From Larkinella terrae (GTDB taxonomy: Bacteria; Bacteroidota; Bacteroidia; Cytophagales; Spirosomataceae): a DNA stretch of 64,000 nt. How positions within the stretch are numbered: the first letter of the stretch is position 1; each line of letters starts with the position of its first letter. The stretch covers positions 1,136,448 to 1,200,447 of the forward strand of contig NZ_WJXZ01000014.1 of the NCBI RefSeq assembly GCF_009668025.1, written 5' to 3'. The notes beneath the pieces are model-generated. The model was not told the DNA's origin, did not search any database, and saw only the letters and a list, made by a program, of their open reading frames with translations. Below are positions 39,396 through 42,713 of the stretch, one piece after another. A program made the translations under genes and the position numbers.

Positions 39396-40448
39396 TTACG
39401 CAGCAATCCGCAGCTCCGGCTGTTCAGGAAGCAGCATCGGCTCGATGACACTGGTCAGTCGCTCGCGGAGGAAACCTTTCTGCAAATAGGAGGGGAGCTT
39501 GGCAATCAACTGTTTATAGCCCTGAATCCCCAGTGCTTTGGCAATATAAGCTTCGTGTACGGCATTGATGTGCGACACGATATTGACCAGACTTTCGTGG
39601 AACTGCCGAACGTCGATCTCCGACTCTACAAACCGCTCGATCTCGCGGTTGGTCGACGAAATCCGCAGGCGGCTCAGGGCGTCGAAATAAGTCGTATAAC
39701 CAATCTGTTTGCCCAGTTGCTTGTATTGATCTAGGCCGAACTTCTGCAAAATCTTACCGGTTTTTTCACTCCGTAACGCCGTTTTCGGGTTGTTCTGAAT
39801 TGCCTGCCGCAAGGCTTTGATGCGCCGGTCGCGGGAGGTTTTCAGAAACTGGGCAATCTCAATCTGCGCGGCCGATTCCCGCGAAGGCAGGTTCAGGTCC
39901 GGTTTCGCAATATCGAATTTTGCCAGCGGGAGCCGCATCGTGCGGTATCCGTTCAAGGGACCCGAAGCGTAAAAACCGATCGAAGCCGGGTAATAGCCGC
40001 GTACGACCATGTTTCCGATTCGCCGACGAATGATCTCTTCGTTGCTGATCGGTTCACCCATCGTATGCAGAAAAGCCCGTACGCTGAACAAGACGCTGTA
40101 ATATGCCTGCGGGAACGTCCAGTGCAACGAACTTTGCAAATACTGATTGTCGTTGACCACCGGCGTAATCCGAAGTGCGTATTCGGCACTCCAGCTATTC
40201 AGCAACAACTTTTCCAGCGCCTTGCGTTGCTCGTCGGAAACGGCGGGCGCAAAATCCTGAAACAACGGAAAACGGCGCAGATCGAACAGGTCGTCCTGCC
40301 GCTGAATGTGAAAATCAATCGCGAAGAAGTGGTTCAGAAACACCTGCGCCGGAATGGATTTTCGCCATGTTTCGTCCACGGGTTGAGCCGGTGAAAACGG
40401 TACCAGTTTACCCTCTTGAGTTGTCGACTTTTCTGTGTTCTCGTTCAT
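39396..40448 (-). CDS. Hypothetical helical protein (350 residues)
   Basis: No signal peptide; predominantly helical and charged. Residues 105-150 (SLHWTFPQAYYSVLFSVRAFLHTMGE) resemble the helix pair of HEPN-type domains, but a clear Rx4-6H motif is not evident, so this is only a resemblance. Later parts include basic LKTSRDRRIKALRQAIQ and RERLTSVIEPMLLPEQPE. I do not recognise a family. The gene stands alone, convergent with the PhnZ-like gene and divergent from the BlaI gene. Confidence 0.6.
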   Translation of the reverse strand: MNENTEKSTTQEGKLVPFSPAQPVDETWRKSIPAQVFLNHFFAIDFHIQRQDDLFDLRRFPLFQDFAPAVSDEQRKALEKLLLNSWSAEYALRITPVVNDNQYLQSSLHWTFPQAYYSVLFSVRAFLHTMGEPISNEEIIRRRIGNMVVRGYYPASIGFYASGPLNGYRTMRLPLAKFDIAKPDLNLPSRESAAQIEIAQFLKTSRDRRIKALRQAIQNNPKTALRSEKTGKILQKFGLDQYKQLGKQIGYTTYFDALSRLRISSTNREIERFVESEIDVRQFHESLVNIVSHINAVHEAYIAKALGIQGYKQLIAKLPSYLQKGFLRERLTSVIEPMLLPEQPELRIAA

Positions 40449-40707
40449 ATAATTAGAACGAAAAAAACGTCCGCTTTGTTCAAAGGTGCAGAATTATTTT
40501 ACGAATGTAATGTATTGATAATCAATATATTAAAATCTATTTTTTGAGGTCGGATCAGCTTTTGAAAATGATGCCTGAAAAGTCGCTTTTTATTCGGTAA
40601 AAACTGCTTTTGCCGGTGCGGTTTTCAGCCCGGCCCGGCCCGGTTTTGATCCTTCATTTTTACCCCGCATTTACTAGATTTGTATCTTTTAACGTATTTT
40701 AACGTTA

Positions 40708-40747
40708 TATAACTGATTAATACGTTGTATAACTGAAAAATGCGTTA
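40708..40747 (+). promoter_or_regulatory. Tandem 20-bp repeat, probable BlaI-type operator
   Basis: TATAACTGATTAATACGTTG (40708-40727) is followed at once by TATAACTGAAAAATGCGTTA (40728-40747), 14 of 20 or more positions equal. Upstream, TTTTAACGTATTTTAACG forms another short repeat. The block ends 12 bp before the BlaI-like ATG, the position expected for an autorepressor site. Confidence 0.6.
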
Positions 40748-40759
40748 TAGCTTTGGTTC

Positions 40760-41149
40760 ATGGAACAGCTGACCAAAACGGAAGAGAAAGTGATGCAAAT
40801 TCTTTGGACCATCAAAAAAGGATTTGTCAAGGACGTTATCGATGGCATGCCCGACCCGAAACCGCCGTACAACACGATTTCGTCGCTCATTCGGATTCTG
40901 GAGAAAAAGGGATTTGTGGGGCATAAGGCTTACGGCAAAACTCACGAATATTTTCCGACGGTTTCGAAGCTGGGGTACCGAAGGTTTACATTCACTCATT
41001 TTCTGACGAACTACTTTGAAGGGTCGCCGGAAAAGGTCGTTTCATTTATGGTGAACGAAGAAAAACTGAGCTCTTCGGACATTCAGCGAATCGTGGAAAT
41101 GCTGGATAAGGAAGAAACCGATCCGACCCAAACCGGCCATGCTGACTGA
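40760..41149 (+). CDS. BlaI/MecI/CopY-family repressor
   Basis: A 129-residue winged-helix repressor: LTKTEEKVMQILWTIKKGFVKDVIDGMPD, then PPYNTISSLIRILEKKGFVGHKAYGKTHEYFP, the classical BlaI DNA-binding domain, followed by a C-terminal dimerisation helix (SSDIQRIVEMLDKEE). In the beta-lactam systems this repressor is inactivated when the partner M56 protease senses its ligand. Here the partner gene overlaps by 11 bp, so the two are one operon. No beta-lactamase gene is near, so the regulated genes are unknown. Confidence 0.93.
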   Translation: MEQLTKTEEKVMQILWTIKKGFVKDVIDGMPDPKPPYNTISSLIRILEKKGFVGHKAYGKTHEYFPTVSKLGYRRFTFTHFLTNYFEGSPEKVVSFMVNEEKLSSSDIQRIVEMLDKEETDPTQTGHAD

Positions 41150-42572
41150 TCTGTTCATTTATCTGGCCCAGGGAACGGTTGCGCTGACGGTTTTTGCCCT
41201 GCCTTACCGGTTTTTCTTCAGCCGCCTGACGTACTTTCAGTGGAATCGCTTCTATTTGCTCGGTAGCGCACTGCTGAGCCTGCTCATTCCCTTCGGACCA
41301 ATGCCAGACCTGTTGAGCCCCGGCGAAGCCACAGAAGCGGTTTTTGGGCTAAATCGGGTGGAATCCAGCCAATCGGCCGGGGAGTTATTGCTGACGGAAA
41401 CCACCACGCCGACGGGATTTTCCGCGATTGACCTGGGCGCAGTTCTGCTAATTTTATACGGACTTGGCTGTCTGTATAAAACCGCCCGTTTCTTTCGAAA
41501 TCTGAGCGCGATTTTCAACGTCATTCGAACCAGCCGGAAAATAGAATCGGGAAGTTATTCCTCCATTTATGGCCAGTCGCGGTTGCCGACTTTCTCATTT
41601 CTGAACGGCATTTTTCTCAACTTCGATGATCATTCTTTGACTGAAGAAGATCGGGTGCAGGTTCTGCAACACGAGCGGCTTCATGTCAGGCATCGACACA
41701 CGCTGGATTTGCTTTTGGTTGAAATCCTCGGCATCGTCTTCTGGTTCAATCCGGTTGTGCCGTATTTCAGTCGGTCGATTCGGCTGGTGCACGAATATTT
41801 CGTCGATTCAAGGATGGCCCGCAGCGGAAAAAATGTCCGGACATACGGCTATTTGCTCCTGAAGTTAACCCTGCAACAATCTCCGAATTCGCTGGTACAT
41901 TCTTTCTCGACGAAGCCCATTTTTCTGCGTATTCAAATGCTTACTCAAACTCCTTCCAAACCCATGCAAAAGCTGACTTTTCTGCTCATTTTGCCCGTTC
42001 TGGTACTCACAACGGCGTTATGCTCCTTTTTCCAACCCGCCGAATCCCGCCCGGGGGTTTTACCTCCCACCGGAAAACCGGTACATGGGACGCCCATCGG
42101 ACGGATTACCTGGAAAGGAAATACGGTTTATCCAACGGCGGAATTGAATAAAACACTGGGCGTAAAACCGGGCGATCGCTACGATAAAAAGGATTTTAAC
42201 GACCATCTTTTTAACCGTCTCGGGACGGATGTTGCATCCCTGTACATGGACAAAGGCTATTTGTATTTCAACATCGACGTGAAAGAAAACCGGGTGGGTG
42301 CGCGGGTTAATCTGGAGCTGACGGTTTTTGAAGGGCATCCCGCTACCATCGGAAAAGTGGTCGTGAAAGGCAATAAAAAAGTGGCTACCAATAGCATTCT
42401 CGCAGCCATTCCCGTCCAGCCGGGCGATTTATTTAACCGTTCCAAATTGATTAAATCCCAGCAGATTCTCGCCGAAATGGGGCCATTTAATCCGACAAAA
42501 ATTGGCATTAATCCGATTCCGAACCAACAGACAAAAACCGTTGATCTGGAATATGTGCTGGTGGAAAACTAA
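41139..42572 (+). CDS. BlaR1-type M56 membrane metallopeptidase with C-terminal POTRA-like domains
   Basis: 477 residues. Membrane helices lie at about 5-26, 37-55, 98-116 and 195-212. The zinc site is HERLH (H178, E179, H182) with VHEYFVDSRMA (E219, D223) downstream, as in M56 peptidases. A last helix (276-296, LTFLLILPVLVLTTALCSFF) sends the remainder to the periplasm. That remainder is two repeats: 318-398 (GRITWKGNTVYPTAELNKTL, GVKPGDRYDKKDF, LYMDKGYLYFNIDVKE) and 402-475 (IGKVVVKGNKKVATNSI, AAIPVQPGDLFNRSKL). Both look like POTRA domains of BamA/Omp85 proteins. Bacteroidota M56 proteins more often end in TonB-like or other domains. Confidence 0.85.
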   Translation: MLTDLFIYLAQGTVALTVFALPYRFFFSRLTYFQWNRFYLLGSALLSLLIPFGPMPDLLSPGEATEAVFGLNRVESSQSAGELLLTETTTPTGFSAIDLGAVLLILYGLGCLYKTARFFRNLSAIFNVIRTSRKIESGSYSSIYGQSRLPTFSFLNGIFLNFDDHSLTEEDRVQVLQHERLHVRHRHTLDLLLVEILGIVFWFNPVVPYFSRSIRLVHEYFVDSRMARSGKNVRTYGYLLLKLTLQQSPNSLVHSFSTKPIFLRIQMLTQTPSKPMQKLTFLLILPVLVLTTALCSFFQPAESRPGVLPPTGKPVHGTPIGRITWKGNTVYPTAELNKTLGVKPGDRYDKKDFNDHLFNRLGTDVASLYMDKGYLYFNIDVKENRVGARVNLELTVFEGHPATIGKVVVKGNKKVATNSILAAIPVQPGDLFNRSKLIKSQQILAEMGPFNPTKIGINPIPNQQTKTVDLEYVLVEN

Positions 42573-42600: not shown

Positions 42601-42713
42601 CCCGGCCCTGACAGCGGTCGCAGACCCTGTCAGCGGCAGCTATTGCCGGGGTTTCCAGCCGTTGCCGGGATTTTCAGCCGCTGACAGGGTCTGCGACCGC
42701 TGTCAGGGCCGGG
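42601..42713. repeat. Perfect 37-bp inverted repeat between convergent genes
   Basis: 42601-42637 is the exact reverse complement of 42677-42713, with a 39-base loop. Each arm contains CTGACAGCGG and CCCTGTCAG, which themselves can pair, and the loop has two GCCGGG blocks. The element separates the convergent M56 and EamA genes, ending 4 bp from the EamA stop. It may be a bidirectional terminator, but the arm length and inner symmetry look like a REP/BIME-type mobile palindrome. Confidence 0.9.

Follow-up and report, generated by a model that had tools for sequence, protein, structure and literature searches.

A gene of Larkinella terrae joins the proteolytic switch of BlaR1, a textbook antibiotic receptor, to part of BamA, from the essential machinery that assembles outer-membrane proteins. 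Profile searches and a structure model show that the product of positions 41139-42572 of the window (the whole stretch of 64,000 nucleotides analysed) is a BlaR1-fold M56 zinc protease whose periplasmic end consists of two true POTRA domains. The switch (BlaR1/BlaI) is known; the sensor is new. Taken as a whole, the locus is best explained as a BlaR1-type receptor-protease with a captured BamA POTRA4-5 sensor, most likely for an unassembled outer-membrane protein or a periplasmic partner of the BAM complex, and we give this complete reading an even chance of being right. The main features of the locus are as follows.

40760..41149, + strand: blaI, a BlaI/MecI-family repressor of 129 amino acids (PF03965, 99.6 bits, cut-off 22.6)
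41139..42572, + strand: M56-POTRA receptor-protease of 477 amino acids (profile and fold evidence)
41961..42026, + strand: helix 275-296 leading into the periplasm (structure model), taken as TM4 by homology with BlaR1
42090..42329, + strand: first POTRA domain, residues 318-397, from BamA POTRA4 (profile, alignment, structure model)
42345..42566, + strand: second POTRA domain, residues 403-476, from BamA POTRA5 (profile, alignment, structure model)

The original prediction had described a BlaR1-type M56 peptidase paired with BlaI and carrying two domains that resemble the POTRA domains of BamA/Omp85 in the place of a penicillin-binding sensor, and each of these parts was borne out at the coordinates given, with scores far beyond chance. 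The Peptidase_M56 profile scores 51.8 bits (cut-off 31) on the 477-residue protein, and the structure model has the BlaR1 fold with four transmembrane helices. POTRA (PF07244) is matched twice, at 82.4 bits against a cut-off of 21.3, and the proposed check of the C-terminal region by HMM and structure prediction found the POTRA fold in both domains, so that curated score and fold agree. The last bases of blaI overlap the start of the protease gene. The penicillin-binding sensor domain is absent, since NCBIfam blaR1_generic reaches only 24.8 bits against a cut-off of 400 and the C-terminus is POTRA. Nor is the protein a BamA with five POTRA domains and a 16-strand barrel: it has POTRA4-5 only, and TIGR03303 scores 58.6 bits against a cut-off of 297. 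A profile built from 35 intact homologues picked out both parents in the PDB: its positions 11-293 match S. aureus BlaR1 (E 2.7e-10), and its positions 322-488 match chains of the BamA type, best 9HJM (E 1.3e-41). This set of 35 leaves out L152 (the same record as L062), the decayed copies L043 and L165-L168, and the copy of G890, which lies at a contig edge. Two of the fusions, L157 and L062 (ORFs of 613 and 640 aa), have about 100 further C-terminal residues past the POTRA pair. At the outer end of TM4 a Cys in a lipobox-like stretch (residues 290-301, window 42006-42041) was seen in 22/35 fusions, and a lipoprotein reading of it was rejected because the Cys occurs in only these 22.

The sequence features expected of a working M56 protease lie at these positions (a slash marks the scissile bond).

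41670..41684, + strand: HExxH, residues 178-182, zinc ligands and catalytic Glu (H178, E179 and H182 in 35/35)
41793..41807, + strand: ExxxD, residues 219-223, third zinc ligand, with the Asp expected to pair with Arg264 (E219 and D223 in 35/35)
41892..41906, + strand: autocleavage-loop motif L252-V-H-S255/F256, equivalent of BlaR1 L280-S-H-S283/F284

The working parts of S. aureus BlaR1, according to PMC9834060, are His201-Glu-x-x-His205, Glu242-x-x-x-Asp246, Asp210, Tyr261 and Arg294, with an autocleavage loop L-S-H-S283/F284. Tyr261 and Arg294 are matched by Y236 and R264, invariant in all 35 intact homologues. The bulky hydrophobic P1' residue and the downstream Arg of an autocleavage loop are both present (F256 in 33/35, R264 in 35/35), and L252 is kept in 32 homologues and H254 in 26, while the P1 residue at 255 is variable (Ala 15, Ser 8, Pro 7, Thr 4). 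Asp210, five residues after the second His of BlaR1, is unmatched: His187 stands at that spacing in 35/35 and the invariant Asp190 three residues on, an assignment made by spacing. For this reason we call the protein BlaR1-type and not BlaR1. The proteolytic module is apparently complete.

The repressor carries the matching half of the switch.

41042..41047, + strand: BlaI Ser95-Phe96, predicted cleavage site (Ser in 34/34; then Phe 28, Tyr 6)

Besides its Penicillinase_R profile score, BlaI has a scissile aromatic residue after a small one in all 34 copies, always as Ser-Phe or Ser-Tyr, and the P1' Phe is described as almost invariant in known BlaI (PMC9834060, section 7). The gene lies directly upstream of the protease gene in 34/34 intact loci for which the upstream side is available, in three families; the contig of L062 ends there. 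Homology with BlaR1 gives good support to a circuit in which engagement of the POTRA pair would activate the M56 domain and lead to cleavage of BlaI, and by analogy we consider the circuit up to that cleavage very likely.

The POTRA pair can be traced to BamA. Residues 323-476 of the fusion are 43% identical to residues 320-473 (POTRA4 and POTRA5) of the BamA of the same genome, the order and register of the domains are as in BamA, and the fusion protein stops where the BamA barrel begins. Its best matches among solved structures were 5EFR, which we take to be a Rhodothermus structure, 9HIV from B. thetaiotaomicron and 9N2D-9N2F from F. johnsoniae. In a tree of 64 POTRA4-5 sequences (60 different), which has several long branches and an unsure inner order, the 35 fusions fall on one side of a branch and the 29 BamA sequences on the other, with support of 96/91. 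The tree suggests that the pair was probably captured once, and more than one capture is unsupported by it. A BamA of their own was found in all 28 genomes checked (25 with the intact fusion and 3 without; the copy of G136 is split over two contigs), thus the fusion is no substitute for BamA. One genome with a fusion (G188, L239) also encodes, in a frame of 823 aa, an additional and divergent BamA-like protein that shares 35% identity with the BamA of Larkinella.

The pair has not kept all that defines POTRA4-5 in BamA. Against 28 BamA sequences (B_G188b left out, B_G136 partial), 69 positions are at least 95% conserved in BamA; 40 of these still have the BamA residue in half or more of the 35 fusions, and the other 29 are lost. 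Retention is lower for polar positions (14/33) than for nonpolar ones (26/36; Fisher p 0.016; charged positions alone p 0.12), and the INPxP turn of BamA is retained (N 0.89, P 0.94, P 1.0 over the 35 fusions). The POTRA fold is preserved, and part of the BamA surface is probably lost. Because the 29 lost positions are mostly polar, the contacts that BamA itself makes there may not survive in the fusion, which argues against a faithful mimic of BamA.

Compared with Larkinella rosea, the closest relative by this gene, identity is 96% for BlaI, 80% for the M56 part, 79% for the POTRA part, 97.5% for BamA POTRA4-5, and 97% and 94.5% for the flanking genes, and dN/dS is about 0.2 in both halves of the fusion against 0.04 in BlaI. 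Against five congeners, identity ranges over 54-79% in the POTRA part and 95.6-97.5% in BamA POTRA4-5, and the M56 part has a dN 2.5 to 7 times as high as BlaI; synonymous change exceeds 1 in most of the farther comparisons, and the yardsticks are BlaI, BamA and the flanking genes. By these values purifying selection acts on both halves of the fusion, but the fusion changes faster than either BlaI or BamA.

Loss of BamA-specific polar positions with retention of fold-defining residues is what would be expected if the proteolytic circuit were unchanged but the POTRA pair re-purposed, as a general peptide- or protein-binding or dimerisation module for a different signal, from the periplasm or the inner membrane, that has nothing to do with outer-membrane assembly. 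The divergence of the POTRA part among congeners, set against the constancy of the same domains in BamA, also fits this explanation, as do the different envelope-derived domains on a further M56 protein of L. terrae (L006, below). However, the pair was taken from BamA in order and register and ends exactly at the barrel, and it has kept certain features of BamA, the INPxP turn among them. We regard a re-purposed pair as unlikely, though it carries real weight.

The fusion is patchy within Cytophagales and has repeatedly decayed. The family sample has an intact copy in 9/121 genomes and a decayed copy in one. Of nine Larkinella genomes, six have an intact copy, one a decayed copy (three stops and no blaI beside it) and two no match. 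One genus of another family, presumably Hymenobacter (a guess), gave matches in 28/120 genomes, comprising 23 intact copies, four broken ones (G356, G163, G869 and G904) and the contig-edge copy of G890. The possibility raised at the outset that the domain is simply a common M56 extension did not hold, as only 19/390 genomes of the order sample (Cytophagales; E 1e-42, decayed copies counted in) and 3/395 of the phylum sample (E 1e-40, all three inside Cytophagales) match; these counts are lower bounds and may miss independent M56-POTRA fusions, since the searches scored the best few candidates per genome under strict E-values. Frequent absence and decay show that these bacteria can do without the system and that it is no core stress pathway.

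Another M56/BlaI pair lies in the same genome (C17). Its M56 protein (L006:286-2247, - strand) carries CarboxypepD_reg, TonB_C and TonB-receptor Plug domains, and the BlaI beside it is 50% identical to that of the window. Sensors derived from the cell envelope may thus be more widespread among M56 proteins.

Around the pair of the window, neighbouring genes are common within clades and differ between them, and no third constant gene besides blaI was found within 6 kb in 40 loci. Divergent from blaI (window 39396-40448, - strand) is a gene for a 350-aa protein that is 89-97% conserved over five congeners and has no Pfam match above cut-off. Between the stop of the protease gene and a convergent EamA transporter gene, window 42601-42713 holds a large inverted repeat with 49-bp arms, 90% complementary, and a 15-nt loop (DNA fold z -13); its 25-base core recurs among the other fetched loci only in two that overlap the same place, and nowhere else in the window. 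PADLOC returned no match for the receptor, and for BlaI one weak match to a CARF-protein model (E 0.0087, residues 3-61); on these two results an anti-phage defence reading was rejected.

Parts of the TonB C-terminal and receptor plug type are used by phages and colicin-like toxins in other bacteria, and darobactin acts on the barrel of BamA, not on POTRA4-5. Both facts bear on the idea that the sensor is a molecular decoy, a BamA look-alike that detects attack on BAM by a peptide antibiotic or bacteriocin touching POTRA4-5, much as the BlaR1 sensor is a look-alike of a penicillin-binding protein. Derivation of the sensor from the very target that is essential, its fast evolution (by the dN/dS values of the L. 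rosea comparison), patchy presence with repeated decay, and the TonB_C and plug domains of the L006 protein would all suit a decoy, but the site of darobactin action, the missing constant neighbour and the receptor's lack of a PADLOC match do not, and we find a decoy quite improbable. Darobactin resistance is discussed, together with BamP, in PMC12611786.

Upstream of blaI, a phylogenetic footprint reveals a candidate operator.

40691..40755, + strand: array of inverted GTT/AAC half-sites, in 20-bp phase, that covers the blaI promoter (phylogenetic footprint; candidate operator)
40702-40715, + strand: full site ACGTTATATAACTG of the array
40722-40735, + strand: full site ACGTTGTATAACTG of the array
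near 40691 and 40742, + strand: flanking half-sites of the array
40748..40755, + strand: TAGCTTTG, a TAnnTTTG match 4 nt before the blaI ATG (motif match)

The footprint is found in nine loci of the own family and 27 further loci (26 of one other family, one of a third), and the GTT/AAC array occurs in Larkinella, in two other genera of its family and in the other family. The exact double array GTTNNNNAAC-N10-GTTNNNNAAC is present in 27/34 blaI upstream regions, and within the L. terrae genome the blaI promoter is its only double-site match. Binding of BlaI to these palindromic operators is predicted from the footprint. TAnnTTTG is the Bacteroidetes -7 element. Because TAnnTTT[GA] stands only 3-4 nt before the blaI ATG in 29/34 loci, across two families, the blaI transcript is probably leaderless.

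Genome scans for further targets returned mainly the pair's own promoter. In 12 genomes the strict double array (up to 3 mismatches) gave 14 matches, comprising eight own promoters, one match overlapping an own promoter and five elsewhere, against 12 for a reversed-pattern control; the eight belong to G064, G104 and the six Larkinella genomes in which the system is intact, and not to G118. A looser double array gave 21 sites in nine Larkinella genomes, six at own promoters and 15 elsewhere, against 4 in the control (for the six system-bearing genomes, 9 elsewhere against 3), an excess that cannot be called background by number alone. Eleven of the 15 were opened: ten lie inside long ORFs (three of them in the same conserved gene of three genomes), and the one intergenic site is in G091, a genome without the M56-POTRA system. 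The same search in 33 genomes outside Larkinella (23 with the system) gave 27 sites, 18 at own promoters and nine elsewhere, against 20 in the control. Three of the five opened among these nine lie outside ORFs of at least 100 aa. One, in G314 (L252:1490-1530), is palindromic and resembles the operator array; it lies some 100 bp ahead of a thioredoxin-like gene (WCQPC, by eye), away from the M56-POTRA locus, and is possibly a single distal target, an isolated lead; the other two, in the system-bearing genomes G188 (L241 near 1501) and G131 (L247 near 1501), are GC-richer and less operator-like. Single operators with up to 1 mismatch number 10 against 10 in the control in the own genome and 89 against 120 over 12 genomes. 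When the single sites of G000 and G071 were set side by side, an operator-like one just upstream of an L,D-transpeptidase-like gene (by eye; L172 near 1286, L180 near 1262) proved to recur in 5/9 Larkinella genomes, and was dropped as a regulon member since two of the five, G091 and G108, have no intact system. No recurrent second target was found in the double-array scans of 12, nine Larkinella and 33 further genomes or in the single-site scans, and no outer-membrane-biogenesis regulon emerged from the operator scans of these genomes. The only recurrent target of the array is the pair's own promoter; weaker, isolated or differently arranged targets of BlaI are possible.

An operator that recurs only at the blaI-m56 promoter, with no other gene constant beside the pair, invites the explanation that the protein itself is the output: once induced, M56-POTRA would serve outer-membrane proteins as a holdase or quality-control factor tethered to the inner membrane, and BlaI would do no more than set its level. 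We know of no case in which two POTRA domains alone act as a chaperone, and this speaks against such a role. The active site of BlaR1 faces the cytoplasm, according to PMC9834060, so a site placed in this way could not cut periplasmic clients. The holdase explanation seems rather improbable to us.

Under the preferred explanation, a receptor-protease with a captured POTRA4-5 sensor, the pair would be placed in the periplasm close to the inner membrane, on a linker of roughly 20 residues. Two POTRA domains on so short a linker would span little of the periplasm, so direct contact with the outer-membrane BAM complex is unlikely. From POTRA biology, the pair would bind a peptide or protein ligand, most likely an extended stretch of an outer-membrane protein that is still unassembled, or else a partner of BAM in the periplasm. 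In the F. johnsoniae BAM complex, according to PMC12611786, the N-terminal domain of BamP binds POTRA4 and POTRA5 of BamA. By analogy with BlaR1, ligand binding would shift TM4 and the autocleavage loop would leave the active site; the freed M56 site would then cut BlaI between Ser95 and Phe96, and the blaI-m56 operon would be derepressed as a leaderless transcript. Since the array was not found to recur at any second promoter, more receptor would be the first output, and a wider response, if any, could come from weaker sites, another protease substrate or the POTRA protein itself. That the pair senses unassembled outer-membrane protein is plausible by analogy, and we put outer-membrane assembly as the trigger at even or slightly less.

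Searches of the open-licence PMC literature, judged by the titles or abstracts of the papers listed, turned up no M56-POTRA protein and no BlaR1-type protease with a sensor from BamA, which, for that body of work, agrees with the initial statement that no described system of such design was known. If the POTRA pair reads outer-membrane assembly, Bacteroidota would have a way of sensing envelope stress that is new, and BlaI/M56 pairs would suggest themselves as a plug-in receptor platform. We tentatively propose, at less than even odds, an undescribed sensing pathway in this phylum, in which BamA-derived POTRA4-5 on a BlaR1-type protease reads either outer-membrane protein left unassembled or the integrity of BAM, and responds by BlaI proteolysis, without a sigma factor or two-component system; in its wider form, M56/BlaI pairs would be a modular receptor class with sensors copied from the guarded envelope machine (BamA POTRA, TonB C-terminal domain, TonB-receptor plug). 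The BAM complex of Bacteroidota was reported as distinctive in 2025 (PMC12611786 and PMC12578637), and a genetic system for BAM depletion exists in F. johnsoniae (PMC12611786).

Compared with known systems, the pair resembles staphylococcal and bacillar BlaR1/BlaI and MecR1/MecI in its four-helix M56 gluzincin domain with HExxH and ExxxD, the active-site Tyr and Arg, the autocleavage loop with P1' Phe, the BlaI/MecI-type partner with a Ser-Phe-type site and the operator over its own promoter. Unlike BlaR1 and MecR1, it has a POTRA pair as sensor instead of a penicillin-binding domain, and His187, with the invariant Asp190 beyond, where the spacing of BlaR1 would place Asp210; neither a beta-lactamase nor a PBP gene was seen next to it, and no recurrent distal target was found. 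With Bacteroidota BamA it shares homologous POTRA4-5 (fusion residues 318-476) in the same order and register, but it is without POTRA1-3 or a barrel, is predicted to be anchored in the inner membrane, has lost many polar positions conserved in BamA, and stands beside the complete BamA of the Larkinella genome, not instead of it. The L006 pair shares with it the protease platform, the BlaI partner and GTT/AAC half-sites at the promoter, but differs in its periplasmic modules and in an M56 part only about 28% identical to that of the fusion.
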